A DNA stretch of 64,000 bases from the NCBI GenBank assembly GCA_000310025.1, contig FN649753.1:979985-1043984 (forward strand). The letters are read 5' to 3'. The first letter of the stretch is position 1. Each line of letters begins with the position of its first letter. The position numbers and the translations under genes were made by a program. The notes beneath the pieces were generated by a model. That model had not been told where the DNA came from, ran no database searches, and was given only the letters and a program-made list of their open reading frames with translations. Of the stretch, positions 33,632-42,216 are shown piece after piece. This DNA comes from Ectocarpus siliculosus (taxonomy: Eukaryota > Sar > Phaeophyceae > Ectocarpales > Ectocarpaceae).

Positions 33632-33925
33632 CTACTTTGCCGCGCCCCCCACTTTGGAAACGCCGGCAACCACCGACACAGGCTTACTATTTAAACCAGC
33701 GTCCTCCTGTCCCTCCCCTCTCCGAACCACCCGGGTCCAGTCGTTACCCTCCGACCCTGACTCCGCGTCTTCGCCCGGCTTTCCTTCTTTGTTCGCCACT
33801 TCTTTTTCTCGCATGGCCTTGTCGAGCGCCGCTAGTCGGAGGTACCTGCGGCCAGGCGGCATGTACCAGGGCCTTTCGTTGTTACGCGCAAAGTTGTCAA
33901 AAACAAATCCATAATTCGAAGCATA
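33632..33925 (-). CDS. Probable last exon of an unrecognised gene
   Basis: A minus-strand frame entered by a plausible acceptor (GTTTGCGTGCAG before TAT) and ended by TAG at 33632-33634. It encodes about 97 residues: an aromatic and basic start (NYGFVFDNFARNNERPWYMP, then PGRRYLRLAALDKAMREKE) and an acidic, then Val/Gly-rich tail. Composition suggests a real small organelle-type protein, but I do not recognise it and found no upstream exon. It lies downstream of the PPR-EngB stop on the same strand, so it is a separate gene or, less likely, a 3' extension. Confidence 0.4.
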   Translation of the reverse strand, partial: YASNYGFVFDNFARNNERPWYMPPGRRYLRLAALDKAMREKEVANKEGKPGEDAESGSEGNDWTRVVRRGEGQEDAGLNSKPVSVVAGVSKVGGAAK

Positions 33926-34774: not shown

Positions 34775-36435
34775 TCATCGAAAGCCGGAGGGCCTCGTTT
34801 CGACACACCTCCACATCCCGTCCCTCCCTAGCTTCGAAGCAGCGCTGGTGAGCACGACAGGGGTGCGGGAGACCCCTGCCTCTCGGAGCGCGGCCACGAC
34901 CCCCTCCAGCACCTGCCTCGACACAGAGTTGTCCGACTTATCCGCCTTCGTCAGCACCACGACGTACCTGCACGACACGTGATTAGGCGTTCGGCGGCGA
35001 CGGCCGCGGCGGGGGTGGTCAGTTGCTTTCGCTACGTGTTCGGTTCGACGTTGACCAAGCATCCCTACTAACGTGAAAACAGCAAAATTTATAACAACAG
35101 AGTCAAACAAGTAAAAATCAAGACGACGGCGAGAAGAACTCCCGCCAAATAAGCAAATAGAACCAGCCACAACGTCAACAAAGCCGGCAAAACAACAACA
35201 CGATCCGAGGACGACAAGAACGAACCTCGCCGTGTCGGGAAGCTCGGCCATGAGCTTCATGATGGCGTGGTCCTGACCCACGGGACCATGTCGACCGTCG
35301 ATGAGATGGAACAGCACGCGAAGCGATGACCTCCGCGTGATGTAGCTCCGAAACAGGGTCGACCACTCCTTCCGCTGTTTCTCGGGCACCTGTTCAGATC
35401 CCGGCGCGCGGCATGTGCACGGCAGCATTGTGCATGGCCGCGTGTCGATCGATGCTTCAGGGTAAAGGGAGCATGCACATCGTAACCACAAAAAATTACC
35501 ACTTCAAAAGGAACGGCCAACGGCCGTGCGTGTGTCTAAAAACTATCCCTCCCGCCGCGGCCCGCCGTTCCTCTTCAGGAACATACTTTGTCCCGTTTTT
35601 GCTTCGCTTTCATCTGCTTTTGTCTGTTGCGCGGAAATGTAGTTTGTTATTCTCACCTTCGCATACCCCATGCCCGGCAAGTCGACGAGATAGAAGGCGT
35701 TTTCGGTGTTGTTGTTCATCAGGAAGTAGTTGAACTGCTGGGTCTTCCCCGGTCGCTTCGACGTAAACGCTAACGCCTGCTTGCGGTTAGGGTTCAAACC
35801 AAAACCAAAGGTTGAAAAAGGGCAACAAAGAAAGGGGAAGTTATCATGAGCTTGTTGCCAGCGGTCTGGTTGCGATGCCCCTTCAGAGTACAAGGTATTT
35901 CTCGTCTCGCTTTACTCTCAAGACCAGCATCGATTAACCCCGCGTTCGCCCTCACTGCCAGTTTTTGATTTGATTACCACTTGCTGCTTTAAGGTTGCCC
36001 CGCTTCGTCCCTCTCTAGCCCCCCCGCCTGCCCACACTCCCAAACACGGGCCAGACGACGCTGTTTGGCTGTCGTACCGACAATGTTGACATGTCCTCAA
36101 AGCCCTCCGCGTAGATACAGGCGGATGATAGGGCAAACATGAAACACAAACATACAAGCTTATCGAGCAACCGTGGACAAAGAGCGGATGGTATGCCAAT
36201 ACATGGAACACACAAGACACACACGTACCAAGCAAGACTGTTCGGAAGGGCGACCAATCGATACCTTGCGGTTGCAGACCATGTTGATGAGGCTGCTCTT
36301 GCCGACGTTGCTCCGCCCGATGAACGCTGCTTCCGGCAGCACCGGCTCCTTCGGAAGCGTCGCCATGCTAACCGCGCCCTGGCCGGCACAAGAGGGGACG
36401 TCAGTCAGCCAGCCAGCCAGCCAGCCAGACGGACG

Positions 36436-36498
<63 letters not shown>

Positions 36499-37147
36499 AG
36501 ATAGAATACAAATAGTCAACTACATATGTCGGCCTCAACACTTAGTTAGCAACCACAAAAATGAAAGACCCAACACAGCGCAGCACAAAAAGAACCACAT
36601 TAGGGCACGCGTTATTTGCCAAGCATGTTCCAGCTTGGCGAGGATCGGCATGGGCATGGCCCAATTGGTGCAACAACAACACAACAGCAGCAGCAGTAGA
36701 AACGCCGTAGAAACAGCAGCAACACCAGCACCAACACCACTGCCAGCGACAGCAGCAACAATATCCGAAGCAGAGGCAATCACGGCAACAGCAGCAAAAA
36801 CAACAACAGGTATTGTTCTCTTGTTCTTAGTGATGGAAAACAGGGGGCACCCGGTTGACGTGCCCATGGCCCCGAAAGACTGTCTTGCCCGCCCATCTAC
36901 AAGTAGGAAACCACAACCACAACAACAACAACAACACAGAAGCCCTCTCTCGGTGCTAACCCTACAGCCCGGCAGGCACCGGAGCACACAACAAAAGCGC
37001 CCACCTTTACGAAGTCCACTCCCCTCACAGCCGCGTTGGCGAGCCACTCGTAGGTCTCATCGTCGCCATCGACCCCCGCCGCCGCCATCACGTCCAGCAC
37101 CTGCCGGCGGCGTAACCAAAAATCAAACCAAGTGGTAATGATATTGC

Positions 37148-37204
<57 letters not shown>

Positions 37205-40200
37205 CGTAATCATTGTTGTTGTTGATGGTGTTTTCTTTGTTATCGTTGTTGTCGTCGCTGCCTTGCTGTAATGATATTGTTGTTGTTGTTGTTGTCGTAA
37301 TCATTGTTGTTGTTGATGGTGTTTTCTTTGTTATCGTGGTTGTCGTCGCTGCCTTGCTCTTGCTCTTGTTGGTGTTGTTCTTCTTCTTCAAATGTTTCTC
37401 TCACGAGATAGGTCATCGACGAACAACGTGGAAAGCTCTGACTTGGTTCAACATTGCGTTGTGTTCGTGGACTGTTGGTTGCTGTGAGGTTGTGGTAGTG
37501 TTTGGTGGTGCATTCGCCCGAGAATGCCTTGTCGTTGTACTGCTCCTGTTGAGGTTGAAAATGTCCTCTCAGTGGCCAAAAAGCAGTTAGCAAAACGCCA
37601 CCAATGCATGATGGGCCGAAAGTAGTGAGTATCACACGTACAGTACGTAGAATGTTGTGTGCAAAACACAAATACACTACCTGGGCGTGAAGTGTACGAA
37701 CACATGTATACATACCCGTGCATGTCCCATTAGTTGTTCTCACCTTGAAGACTACTTATTGTTCTCACCTTGAAGACTGCCTCCAAGTCTCGCCTCTTGT
37801 GGAAACCTTGAAGCAGGCGGTTCGCCGCGGGAGTCTTCACCGGCAACTGCACCACCACCACCACCACCACCACCACCAAAAAAGAACCCCAAAAGGAGAG
37901 GAGGCCAGCACACGGGAAAAACAAAGGGGACACGTCGGCAGGCAAGAGACACGTAAAACACCGACATGATGACGCAGCCCGAGGCACACTACGATCTACG
38001 AAAAAAACACGAAAACTTTGTCCGTGTTTGACGATCGACGAAATAGCGGGAGGAGAACAACTGCTGCGAGTGGTCTCGTGGCGGTTTTTCATTGCTTTTT
38101 TCGGAAGGCACGACCGAAAGCAACGGAAACGGCGACGCCAATTTCGAGCGCCCCAAAATGGGGCACACGTGCGTGCAACATGATACCCGGGTACCCAGGC
38201 CACACGATACAAAGAAAGACATGCCAGACACAAGCGACATATTTGGTCGTCTTCGCGTCAGACGAGCGGCCGCGCAAATGGAACATTGTCTGTCCGATAG
38301 GTATTGGCACCAGTTTATTCTTCTTCCTTGCACTTCTCCACCGTCGCATGCCTCTTCAATGGCATGTCTAGCTCCTTTCAGCACGATAACAACAACAACA
38401 ACAACTACAACGACAAGGACACAACAACAACAACAGCAGCAGCAACAACAACAACAATAACAATAACAATAACAGCAACAGCAACAGCAACAGCGACGAC
38501 GACGACGACAACAAAAACAGCAACAAGGGCAACGACAAACGCGGCTAGAGCCCGTACGCTGGTGCCGGCCCCCTTACCCTTGCGTTGGCCATGGCCTCCA
38601 AAAGCCGCATCGCGTCGCCACGCTTGCCGTTCCTCGAGAAAGCCGTGATGAGGTTGGGGTACACCGAGGTCGCCGCAGAGACAAACTCCTGCTCCCGTCG
38701 GGTCAAACAATACACAGGGGTGCTCCGGAGAATAAATCCCTATGCTTGTGGTTGCTTCGTGGGGGTGGTTCTTGCGTGTGTTCATTCGAGAAAACACGCT
38801 GCGCCAACGAGCTTTCCCAGCACGCCCGTCCGCGCTCTCTGTAAAAAAAAAAAAACTTCGTGAGCGCAGAAGCAAGCAGCCGGAAAGCTCTCGCTCACCT
38901 CCGCGAGCTCGTCGCCGCCGCCGCACGAAAACCCGGCCTTGGCGATAAGCTCCTCGGCAAAAGCCGCCTCGCTGGCAGCGCACGCGCACCGGACCACAGC
39001 CTGCGCCCCGTCCAGGTGCCTAGCAAGCCAAGCGTCCCATTGCTCTGCCCTACGAAACAAGGGAGGCAGAGCGGAGAGGGGGCACCTGGGTGAGCGAGTG
39101 TATGGAGGGGGAGGCGTCCCAACCTTCGGGGGCGTTGTACAGAGGGGGGGCGGGGGGTCTCAAGTGACTGGCGATTGGCGTGTATTCGTTATTCCAGAAG
39201 GAGGAATGGATGTGCATGTACACGAGCATCTAAGGCAGGCTAATACTGCGTGCAGGAGAAGAGTGACCATCTTTCGTGGGTGGAGCACACGCTGGTCAGG
39301 CTGCCGATCGGTCCTTAGGGTATTCACCTGCAATCCCATCGTTTTCAAGCCACCCGCAAGCTGCAAGCGCCCCCCAAAACCTTAGGTTCTCCGGAAAAAG
39401 GAAGGCGCACGCGAGAGCATTCATTCTCCGAGACAGGCGGCGAAAAACAACAGCGAGAACCCACCACTACCACCGATACTGCTGTGTGGTAGCATACGAT
39501 GCTGCGAACCACACACTAGTGCCAGATGCTCACCCGAGAGTTTCGATCACGCTCCTGGCGAGGTCCACCCGGCTGAGCTTGAGCTCTTCCTTTACCGCCG
39601 CCGCTGCTAGGTCGGGCAGGCCTTCTATCCCGTTCCTCTTCGCGGTCGAAAACGCCTGCGGTCTCGCCGGTAAACAGTGGAAGCGGGGGGTAGGGAAGGG
39701 GGGGGGGGGGGGGGGCGAACTCTTACATTTTGCATGCCTTTTAGCGGTGAGACCATTGACCACACGTCCTCGAGCGGAGCATAGTTCTCACAGGACCGAT
39801 CACCGATGGCCAATCGCTCCTGTTTACTTTCCCAAAGGTGGCTACAAAACGCCATCCCTATCCTATCGTTCCTATCGATATCACTTCCCGGCTTTTCATC
39901 CCAGATCCTATGCCCCGAATATAGCTACTGTCTCTACTGGCTAGGGGGCGGACGGGCGTAAGGACCGGATGCACTAATTCGACGGCCACAGCAGCGTAGA
40001 AACATCACCCCGAAACACCAGCGGTGGCGGGGTGCTCTCTAATTTTAAGAGAAGAAAGGTATCGCCAAGGCAGCTACAACTCTCTTCAATCCGGCATTCC
40101 CACACCGCCGTGCAACTATGAAAAAAATGCATCTCTCATCCGCAACCTGAGGCCGCCGGAACATTCACCTCAGACCCTGCTGGCTCCGCTACTGCTCAGC

Positions 40201-42216
40201 GGGGAATCTTGCGCGCTTCGTTGCCCGCAAACGACCGGCGAAATTTTTGCTGGCCAGCCGGCCGAGTAGCGTGGTACCAGATGCTTCCAGAAAACTCCAC
40301 AAAATAGCACACACAAATACATACATACAAACATGCACCAGTAAGAGAACCCGCATGCACACCTGGAAAATCTTCTTGGGAGCTTTGGCCTTGCGCAGTG
40401 TCTCGAACGCGCCCAGGAATCCCTCCTTGTCCGAGATTTCCTGCACTGCCACTTGGCCCGCGGCCGCCGCTCCTACGCTCTGCTGAGCCGCCGCCTTGGG
40501 CGCAGGCGTCCCCTTGCCCGCCGCCTTGTTTGCCGCCGCCTGGCCGTGGGGGGGTCAGGGCATGGGAAGGGCTAGAACGGGTATGAAAACAGCCGGTTTC
40601 CCTCCACTTCGCTGAAAAGACTTCAGCACATCCCTTTCGGCTGGGGTAATCTCGAACGGGTACAGTAGTGTCTCTGTGTGTAATTTTTTTTACTGTCCAA
40701 AAACTTGATAGCTAGTGCCGAGGTACTTGGGGATGCATGACAGTGTACAGAACCTTGATGGTCTTGCTCCTCCTGAGGTCGCATCGTGCACGGGTGGGTG
40801 GGCGACACTATCCTGATATGTTGCTGGAGGCAGAGTACCATAAACGTCATCGGATCTTGTGGAAATACGAAAATCTTGGAACCAATCTTCGAGCTGTACA
40901 GTAGTCAGTTGTCAGAAGCTCGGGAGAAATGGTGCTGTCCTGGCTTGCAAGGTCAATTCTGCCCTCTCCACAATCCATCAGAGTGTATGACGAATCTCGT
41001 TGTGTCTCGCTAAGACCGGGTTCTACCTACCCCAACAGAAACGCTCCTGATCGCACAGGACAAACAGGACACCCTCCGCGGTTCGTGCCTTTTACACAAA
41101 GCAGTTTCAACAACCCCTTTTCCTCTTCAACACTCAAGAGCGAGCGGTTTGTCTTCGCCACAGCTGCAACGGAACAAAGGGTCGGTCGGTCGCTGGGGTT
41201 CCTTCTGCACGCGCAAGACAGACAGACAGCCCACCGCAGTCTTAGCTGGCGTTTTCCAAGTCAGCATCCCACAGCTAATGAAGGGACGACCCTCAACCAG
41301 TTGCTACTGCTGCTGCTGTTGCTGTTGCTGCCGCTGCTGCTATTGCTGTTGCCGCCGCTGCTGGTGCGACGTGTATACATAGCGCCGGACAAAGTACTGC
41401 TTATGACCACCGCAACACTGCCGTAGTCGCCGCGTGTTCACCAACATGCACGACATCCCCGACAAAAGGATGTTCGTGCACGCAACCGGTACCGGCACAG
41501 CCTTGCAGCGGTTCGAACTGGCAGTCTCACCGCTCGTGTGAGACTCTTGTGTAACAGGTCTACAGCAGTTACAGCCGACTCATCGAGGCTAAGCAGGGTA
41601 CTCAACGACGCACCTGCTCTTTCTTTGCCTTCTTGCGACCCAGCCCTTTGCCCATCCCCAGCGCCCCTGCCCTCCCCCGTTCCCACCTTGCTCTCCCTCT
41701 GAGCTTGGGCCGCTTGCCCCCCGAAAAGGTCCTACTACTGCCGCCTCCGCTGCTGCCCACCAACGGGCACCGGGCACCGCCGTACGTTGTTGCACCGCCG
41801 ACGCAACCAGCACCACCGCCGGCGAATAGCTTCCCACAAGGGTGACGCTGCGGTTGCTGCAGCTGCTGCTGTTGCTGCAAGACACCCGCGGATAATCTCG
41901 ACGAATCCCTGCCTGCTGCCCACGACGGCGGCGTGGCGGCGGAGAGGCCGCTTGGTCTCCGACTGCTACTGCTGTATCGCGCCGCCGCCGCCGCTGCCCT
42001 TGTCGCGAACCCAGCGGACCGGGCGGTGCTAGTGGCTAGGCGCATGGCGGAGGAGAGAGGGAGCAGGTAGCAGCAGGCGCAGGCGTAGAGCGAGCGCCAG
42101 GGCCTCATCGTGGAGGCGAGAGCACCGCCCAGAGAGCTCATGCTCTTCTGTCTTGCTGTCTTGCTTGACCTGCTCCAGGGGTGGGAGTCCGCCTTCCGCC
42201 TTGGCCGTTGCAACAT
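34775..42216 (-). CDS. PPR-EngB fusion: organelle PPR protein with C-terminal EngB GTPase
   Basis: Eleven minus-strand exons, all in phase: 41614-42216, 40363-40539, 39534-39655, 38899-39049, 38578-38688, 37769-37846, 37005-37100, 36265-36378, 35657-35776, 35226-35389, 34775-34967. Length is 642 residues from the ATG ending at 42216, or 617 from 42141. The leader has a hydrophobic stretch ([16 protein letters not shown]) then Ser/Ala/Arg-rich sequence, suiting a plastid or mitochondrial address. Exons 5-7 encode consecutive PPR-like helical hairpins ([51 protein letters not shown]). Exons 8-11 encode a full EngB domain: G1 [10 protein letters not shown]2 in [13 protein letters not shown]3 DLPGMG, G4 TKADK, G5 TSAASK. 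Known EngB proteins act in large-subunit ribosome assembly, so an organelle-ribosome role with RNA recognition by the repeats is likely (inference). I know of no standard EngB with PPRs. Confidence 0.88.
36403..36504. repeat. Compound tetranucleotide microsatellite
   Basis: A short run of CAGC units, then about 15 units of GACA/ACAG interrupted by GACG, in the intron before the first GTPase exon of PPR-EngB. Confidence 0.95.
37135..37357. repeat. Duplicated (TTG)n-containing unit in a PPR-EngB intron
   Basis: Two copies of a unit starting TAATGATATTG, running through (TTG)n, CGTAATCATTG and GTTTTCTTTGTTATCG, to GTCGCTGCCTTGCT. The first copy (37135-37266) has the longer TTG run (about 20 units) and the second (37267-37357) about 5, so the internal array has expanded or contracted since duplication. 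Confidence 0.85.
37736..37778 (-). promoter_or_regulatory. Tandemly duplicated splice donor
   Basis: On the minus strand AGTCTTCAAG with donor GTGAGAAC occurs twice, 25 bases apart: at the end of PPR-EngB exon 6 (last base 37769) and again 25 bases into the intron (37744). Use of the second donor would add 25 bases and shift the frame. Confidence 0.6.
38386..38520. repeat. CAA/CAG-type microsatellite cluster
   Basis: Mixed AAC, CAG, AAT and ACG units in the intron following exon 5 of PPR-EngB. Confidence 0.9.
39690..39830 (+). repeat. Poly(G)-flanked dispersed repeat
   Basis: A G run (39691-39714), then TTTTGCATGCC, GACCATTGACCACACGTCCT and CACAGGACCGATCACCG. Related copies are at 51050, 56940 (inverted), 58575 and, in part, 6245 and 63890. 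It lies in a PPR-EngB intron. Confidence 0.6.
40590..40690 (+). repeat. Dispersed repeat copy (partner at 10485-10590)
   Basis: CCGGTTTCCCTCCACTTCGC, CTGAAAAGACTTC, CACATCCC and ATCTCGAACGGGTA in the same order as at 10485. It lies in the first intron of PPR-EngB, far from the duplicated block. Confidence 0.5.

Follow-up and report, generated by a model that had tools for sequence, protein, structure and literature searches.

The window analyzed here, 64,000 nucleotides of contig FN649753.1 of the brown alga Ectocarpus siliculosus (assembly GCA_000310025.1, positions 979,985 to 1,043,984), carries on its minus strand a gene for a protein in which pentatricopeptide repeats (PPR) are fused to a complete EngB (YihA/YsxC) GTPase. 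An earlier note, made from the nucleotide sequence alone, described eleven in-phase exons, and splicing of the window along these exons does yield a single open reading frame, 642 codons long and closed by a stop; the 3' end of that model, however, was wrong. Exon 11 ends at 34809 rather than at 34775, the residues that follow ...GRDGMWR in the 642-residue reading, up to the stop at 34775, are intron read-through, and a twelfth exon is located at 33845-33632. The corrected 12-exon model, in which all 11 introns are of the GT-AG type, encodes letter for letter the 677-residue database protein P0001 ("YihA4, YihA/EngB-like GTPase [Ectocarpus siliculosus]"). The annotated start codon of P0001 is at 42141, and an in-frame upstream ATG lies at 42216, 25 codons further out. 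The gene and its identity as an EngB are already on record; its public name refers to the GTPase alone, and the precomputed domain list of the protein includes PPR. The exons are as follows (window positions; N5 and D35 are the residues at positions 5 and 35 of a repeat; pLDDT is the predicted local distance difference test score).

41614..42141 (-): exon 1, counted from the annotated start codon, with the leader and a low-complexity region, residues 1-176 of P0001; pLDDT <50 over most of 1-164
40363..40539 (-): exon 2, beginning of the helical domain
39534..39655 (-): exon 3, helical hairpins
38899..39049 (-): exon 4, helical hairpins
38578..38688 (-): exon 5, PPR-like repeat; PF01535 with E 0.0072, below its cut-off
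37769..37846 (-): exon 6, opening half of the last PPR, including the code residue N5 (N372 of P0001); PF13041 with 33 bits, cut-off 30
37005..37100 (-): exon 7, remaining half of the last PPR (D35 = D402), then the junction helix entering EngB
36265..36378 (-): exon 8, remainder of EngB strand 1 and G1 (GRSNVGKSS)
35657..35776 (-): exon 9, G2 (PGKTQ) and G3 (DLPG)
35226..35389 (-): exon 10, central part of the EngB domain
34809..34967 (-): exon 11 with corrected end, G4 (TKAD) and G5 (TSA)
33632..33845 (-): exon 12, overlooked in the earlier note, last EngB helix (YLRLAALD), C-terminal tail and stop; identical to P0001 and preceded by an AG acceptor

Between exons 6 and 7, the intron contains a tandem repeat with a unit of 91 bp (2.2 copies, 93%, window 37186-37379) beside long TTG runs. 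An Rfam scan of the window gave no match.

Domain architecture and predicted fold

Both domains named in the earlier note score above their curated cut-offs in profile searches of the 642-residue reading, namely PPR_2 (PF13041, Pfam; E 6.3e-8, 33 bits against a cut-off of 30, best stretch 396-437) and the YihA/YsxC equivalog (NCBIfam; 178.8 bits against 124.45, residues 443-633); in addition, the Pfam family MMR_HSR1 was matched at 463-586 (E 3e-19). In P0001 itself, the PPR_2 score is 32.8 bits, so that the curated cut-off is passed narrowly. The five motifs known in EngB GTPases as G1 to G5 were all found, and part of these motifs together with TS is unchanged across all 16 proteins aligned; once exon 12 supplies the last helix, the EngB domain is complete, as had been claimed. 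A sequence search of the PDB matched EngB structures (e.g., 3pqc at 2.1e-31) and the designed PPR protein 5i9f (5.1e-18, summed over repeats).

The AlphaFold2 model of the protein contains about six confident helical hairpins that lead straight into EngB, with helices up to residue 413, EngB strand 1 at 417-423 and pLDDT >90 for most of the block 211-420. A Foldseek search with this model retrieved EngB (1svi, 1.3e-11) as well as a designed PPR protein (5i9g_C, 3.7e-5); an additional VIA-align comparison covered mainly the G domain and did not address the solenoid. The PPR-like hairpins announced in the earlier note are thus upheld by the model, in which there are about six, and only in small part by the sequence, in which one or two score as PPR.

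Exon 7 encodes residues 415-446 of the 642-residue reading and the YsxC profile match begins at 443, so the border between exons 7 and 8 lies within EngB, and a start at the methionine of exon 8 (MATLPKEP) would remove the first EngB strand.

Homologs and spread of the fusion

A homolog search with residues 340-640 identified 667 proteins at E<=0.001, the best 120 of which were considered. The main alignment comprises 88 of the 120 matches listed, the omitted ones being a brown-algal row that was nearly a duplicate and, for the most part, additional diatom-like rows. MMR_HSR1 was detected in all 88 aligned homologs and PPR_2 in 60 of the 88 (E<=0.01); the fusion is also visible in the precomputed domain lists of homologs. 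Close relatives of YihA4 in other brown algae represent the same gene. We set apart 14 rows by a short diatom-like string, which left 74 non-diatom rows (at least one diatom-like row, P0068, remained among them). Around the junction, E407, V414, F419, G422, V424, T428, P430 and E437 are identical in 72 to 74 of these 74 rows, and the junction text LANAAVR-V-FV-GAVSM-TLP is nearly invariant among the homologs. Profile score, fold and conservation together rule out a chance similarity to PPR in the case of P0001.

In five transcriptome-named members (P0011 and P0065, which bear MMETSP transcriptome names, and P0018, P0042 and P0094, which are MMETSP transcript open reading frames), the aligned helical region and EngB are contained in one open reading frame; PPR_2 is below the cut-off in P0011, P0042 and P0065 and unmatched in P0018 and P0094. 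That a single gene encodes one fused protein, as the earlier note proposed, is strongly supported by the exact public record and by the junction that the homologs share.

When 18 homologs were scanned singly (P0121, P0123, P0125 and P0137 from outside the 88-row alignment, the rest from within), a PPR model was matched at E<=0.1 in 12. Matches ahead of EngB were found in the brown algae Scytosiphon (P0004, over the cut-off) and Ascophyllum (P0007), in Chrysoparadoxa (P0008), in the red algae Gracilariopsis (P0017), Agarophyton (P0035), Timspurckia (P0065) and Porphyridium (P0100, over a cut-off), and in the cryptophyte Hemiselmis (P0011). In the diatoms Nitzschia (P0113) and Epithemia (P0115) and in the red alga Cyanidium (P0102), the junction aligns and the N-termini are long, with no PPR match at E<=0.1. 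The fusion, for which a check in other stramenopiles had been proposed, is present in other brown algae and extends beyond stramenopiles; the four red algae and Hemiselmis refute a fusion restricted to that group. The fusion is real and old: red algae have it, as do some of the algae whose plastids are of red origin.

Paralogs and phylogeny

The same genome encodes a second PPR-EngB paralog (L010/L012; G000:C26, about 2400000-2403700, minus strand), in which the exon WAYNQLIRRLGKADRLSDVFEVLDGMARLGVENNHETLEFATNAAIKEVEFETRAVSMKTLP precedes the G1 exon, the last-repeat code is N5/N35 and the junction text is the same. Its relatives, which we denote family II, include proteins from Tribonema (P0123) and Laminaria (P0125, partial) and the metagenomic P0121; the Durusdinium protein P0179 falls in this family on a long branch. 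A further gene, L009 (G000:C27:2364451-2365026, minus strand), is a single-exon EngB without PPR in which GRSNQGKST replaces GRSNVGKSS, and more EngB-like exons are located on C26 (L015) and C8 (L017).

In a tree of the G domain built from 61 hand-picked sequences (most of the other bacterial ones unnamed), families I and II form one clade with ultrafast bootstrap support (UFBoot) of 99, with 70 for family I and 91 for family II; a FastTree analysis of 58 sequences gave a support of 0.86 for the joint clade. Three land-plant EngBs lie outside this clade in the 61-sequence tree. L009 groups with an EngB from a Rickettsiales metagenome-assembled genome, i.e., an alphaproteobacterium (UFBoot 81). 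An alphaproteobacterial origin of PPR-EngB is unsupported, with only L009 grouping with an alphaproteobacterium and families I and II forming a separate clade. A contig scan headed by an alphaproteobacterial EngB produced 80 loci, all from alphaproteobacteria or unplaced Pseudomonadota, and is accordingly no test of origin.

Elsewhere in the genome, G000:C479 contains a local cluster of PPR genes, namely three open frames of 735-736 residues with many PPR_2 matches each (about 514200-515900, 599900-601400 and 691900-693550).

Comparison with known systems

In its G domain, motifs and fold, YihA4 resembles bacterial EngB/YihA/YsxC (PDB 1svi, 3pqc); the solved bacterial chains, however, comprise 195-223 residues and are too short to include a solenoid. 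For comparison with land plants, represented by EngB-1 (At2g22870, P0281), an Arabidopsis-type query was used. All 120 relatives listed for this query, 104 of which are named and all of these read as land plants, list the GTPase and are 232-371 residues long, and a PPR domain is listed for none of the 120. The statement that EngB proteins are usually short agrees with the bacterial structures and with these land-plant relatives. Land-plant EngB-1 is likewise organellar (dual targeting of Arabidopsis EngB1 is described in PMC4263083) and differs by the lack of PPR among the relatives listed and by the position of the three tested proteins outside the PPR-EngB clade. The mitochondrial EngB of trypanosomes (mt-EngB, 6yxy_EQ) is also an organellar EngB and is seen on a large-subunit assembly intermediate; its EngB match starts at residue 58 of 655, which leaves no N-terminal arm of comparable size. 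With PPR proteins (the designed dPPR 5i9g and the plant mitoribosomal mL102/rPPR5, 9gyt_1u), YihA4 shares helical hairpins and a last repeat with the canonical code; unlike theirs, its repeats are few, degenerate and fused to a GTPase.

No report of a PPR-EngB fusion was found in the accessible portions of the open-access literature searched. 'PPR' does not occur in the accessible part of a study on the evolution of organellar EngB (PMC4263083), nor do 'EngB' or 'GTPase' occur in the main text of PMC13126933, which surveyed organelle factors with alpha-solenoids in 2026.

Proposed function and alternatives

We propose that PPR-EngB is probably an organellar, most likely plastid, GTPase of large-subunit assembly, with an arm that contacts rRNA or an assembly partner. 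The nuclear-encoded protein, with a PPR-type alpha-solenoid of about six hairpins predicted to join the first EngB strand without a linker, would enter an organelle, in all likelihood the plastid, where its EngB domain in the GTP form would dock close to the functional core of a large-subunit intermediate at a late stage. The solenoid would touch single-stranded rRNA in the vicinity, with the last repeat contacting at least one pyrimidine, or else an assembly partner, and this contact may add affinity and keep the GTPase oriented up to its release by hydrolysis. In PMC10654211, human GTPBP8 and trypanosome mt-EngB are assigned to late large-subunit assembly, and a plant-specific domain with an assembly role in plant mitochondrial RsgA offers a parallel for an assembly GTPase with a lineage-specific extension (PMC12672651). 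Domain content, gene structure and conservation are observed; the RNA target, the organelle and the timing are predictions.

Several observations weigh against this interpretation. Pfam recognizes only one or two of the repeats as PPR, and the matches to designed PPR proteins in the PDB sequence search are sums, with no single stretch that reaches the threshold alone. Among the 18 homologs scanned singly, only three (P0004, P0100 and P0121) reach a PPR cut-off, and PPR is unmatched in six (P0018, P0094, P0102, P0113, P0115 and P0137, the last with a short N-terminus). No PPR chain is among the 50 rows of the Foldseek list for the model of the diatom protein P0113, which is no proof of absence. 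The leader of the Ectocarpus protein, like other brown-algal leaders, has a hydrophobic stretch without the aromatic residue of ASAFAP, and outside the diatom-like members the homologs starting with methionine show a hydrophobic stretch in 27 of 75 cases and the stretch together with the motif in only 3 of 75. Finally, we infer RNA binding, ribosome association and import alike.

The proposal in the earlier note that the repeats target the GTPase to a specific organelle rRNA goes further than the data: the PPR repeats are few, the canonical code is present only in the last, and the diatom protein that was modeled has the helical fold with no PPR match. In the last PPR of the 74 non-diatom rows, N5 is present in 67, D or N at position 35 in 69, and both in 63; in the PPR code, N5 with D or N at position 35 favors pyrimidines. 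This code-like N5/D35 combination occurs in one repeat only. The penultimate repeat lacks canonical code residues (P5/K35 in Ectocarpus, variable elsewhere), and the diatom-like rows have a poorly aligning stretch with insertions in place of the last repeat. An AlphaFold2 model of P0113 (built with a 50-row alignment that includes six non-diatom rows) nevertheless contains a confident helical domain at 169-404, ahead of EngB, with a mean pLDDT of 80.0, and a Pfam scan of this protein gave no PPR match at E<=0.1. In this one modeled diatom protein, the helical arm is retained without a recognizable PPR; the RNA code may have been lost and the fold kept. Because the fold persists without the signature, shape or partner contact may outweigh the RNA code, at least in diatoms.

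These data bear on the alternative that the solenoid serves as a bracket on the ribosome intermediate, through protein-protein contacts or in a purely structural way, with an ancestral PPR signature and no reading of RNA by code. The helical domain of P0113 and the missing code in the penultimate repeat would fit such a bracket; structure alone, however, would not require the conservation of N5 and D/N35 in the last repeat of non-diatom proteins, and we consider this explanation unlikely, if worth keeping in view.

The leaders bear on the assignment to the plastid. Proteins imported into stramenopile plastids typically carry a signal peptide followed by an ASAFAP-type motif and a transit peptide, and we scanned members starting with methionine using simple in-house thresholds for a hydrophobic stretch and an ASAF-like motif. 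A strong hydrophobic stretch is present in 26 of 37 diatom-like members, and 11 of the 37 have the ASAF-like motif in addition, whereas shuffled segments gave 2.4 on average and never more than 6 (200 rounds). The leader of P0018 carries SASAWAP. Plastid import is therefore likely for the PPR-EngB family, to judge by the leader sequences, and may extend to the Ectocarpus protein itself. A role of the Ectocarpus protein in the mitochondrion instead would fit the missing aromatic residue after the hydrophobic stretch of its leader and the existence of a mitochondrial relative, trypanosome mt-EngB. Against this speak the ASAF-like bipartite leaders of the diatom homologs and P0018, the composition of the family, whose named members either belong to the red algae or carry plastids derived from them, and the separate single-exon EngB, which groups with an alphaproteobacterium as expected for a mitochondrial-type gene; a mitochondrial role is accordingly doubtful in our view.

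The suspicion voiced in the earlier note on account of the in-frame methionine in exon 8, that a PPR gene (exons 1-7) and a neighboring EngB gene starting in exon 8 had been wrongly joined, is hardly credible and was discarded, given that the EngB profile match and the nearly invariant junction both span the boundary between exons 7 and 8 and that transcriptome-named homologs hold both parts in one open reading frame.

Implications

A more far-reaching scenario, which we put forward only as speculation that may well fail, is that PPR-EngB was among the founding assembly factors of red-type plastids: fused in the red-algal ancestor, it would have become the GTPase for the plastid large subunit in red algae and in every lineage that acquired a red plastid. 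In this scenario, the last repeat would read a conserved pyrimidine in plastid 23S rRNA, family II would serve a different step or organelle, and the diatom arm would have given up the RNA code for docking by shape.

In the known relatives of EngB, it is the ribosome intermediate that provides the guidance. YihA4 offers a concrete protein for asking whether a PPR arm acts on rRNA in cis with a GTPase. The built-in solenoid common to red algae and red-derived lineages suggests that red-type plastids build their large subunit with a part that is absent from land plants, and the PPR-EngB fusion may serve as a marker of red-plastid ancestry.

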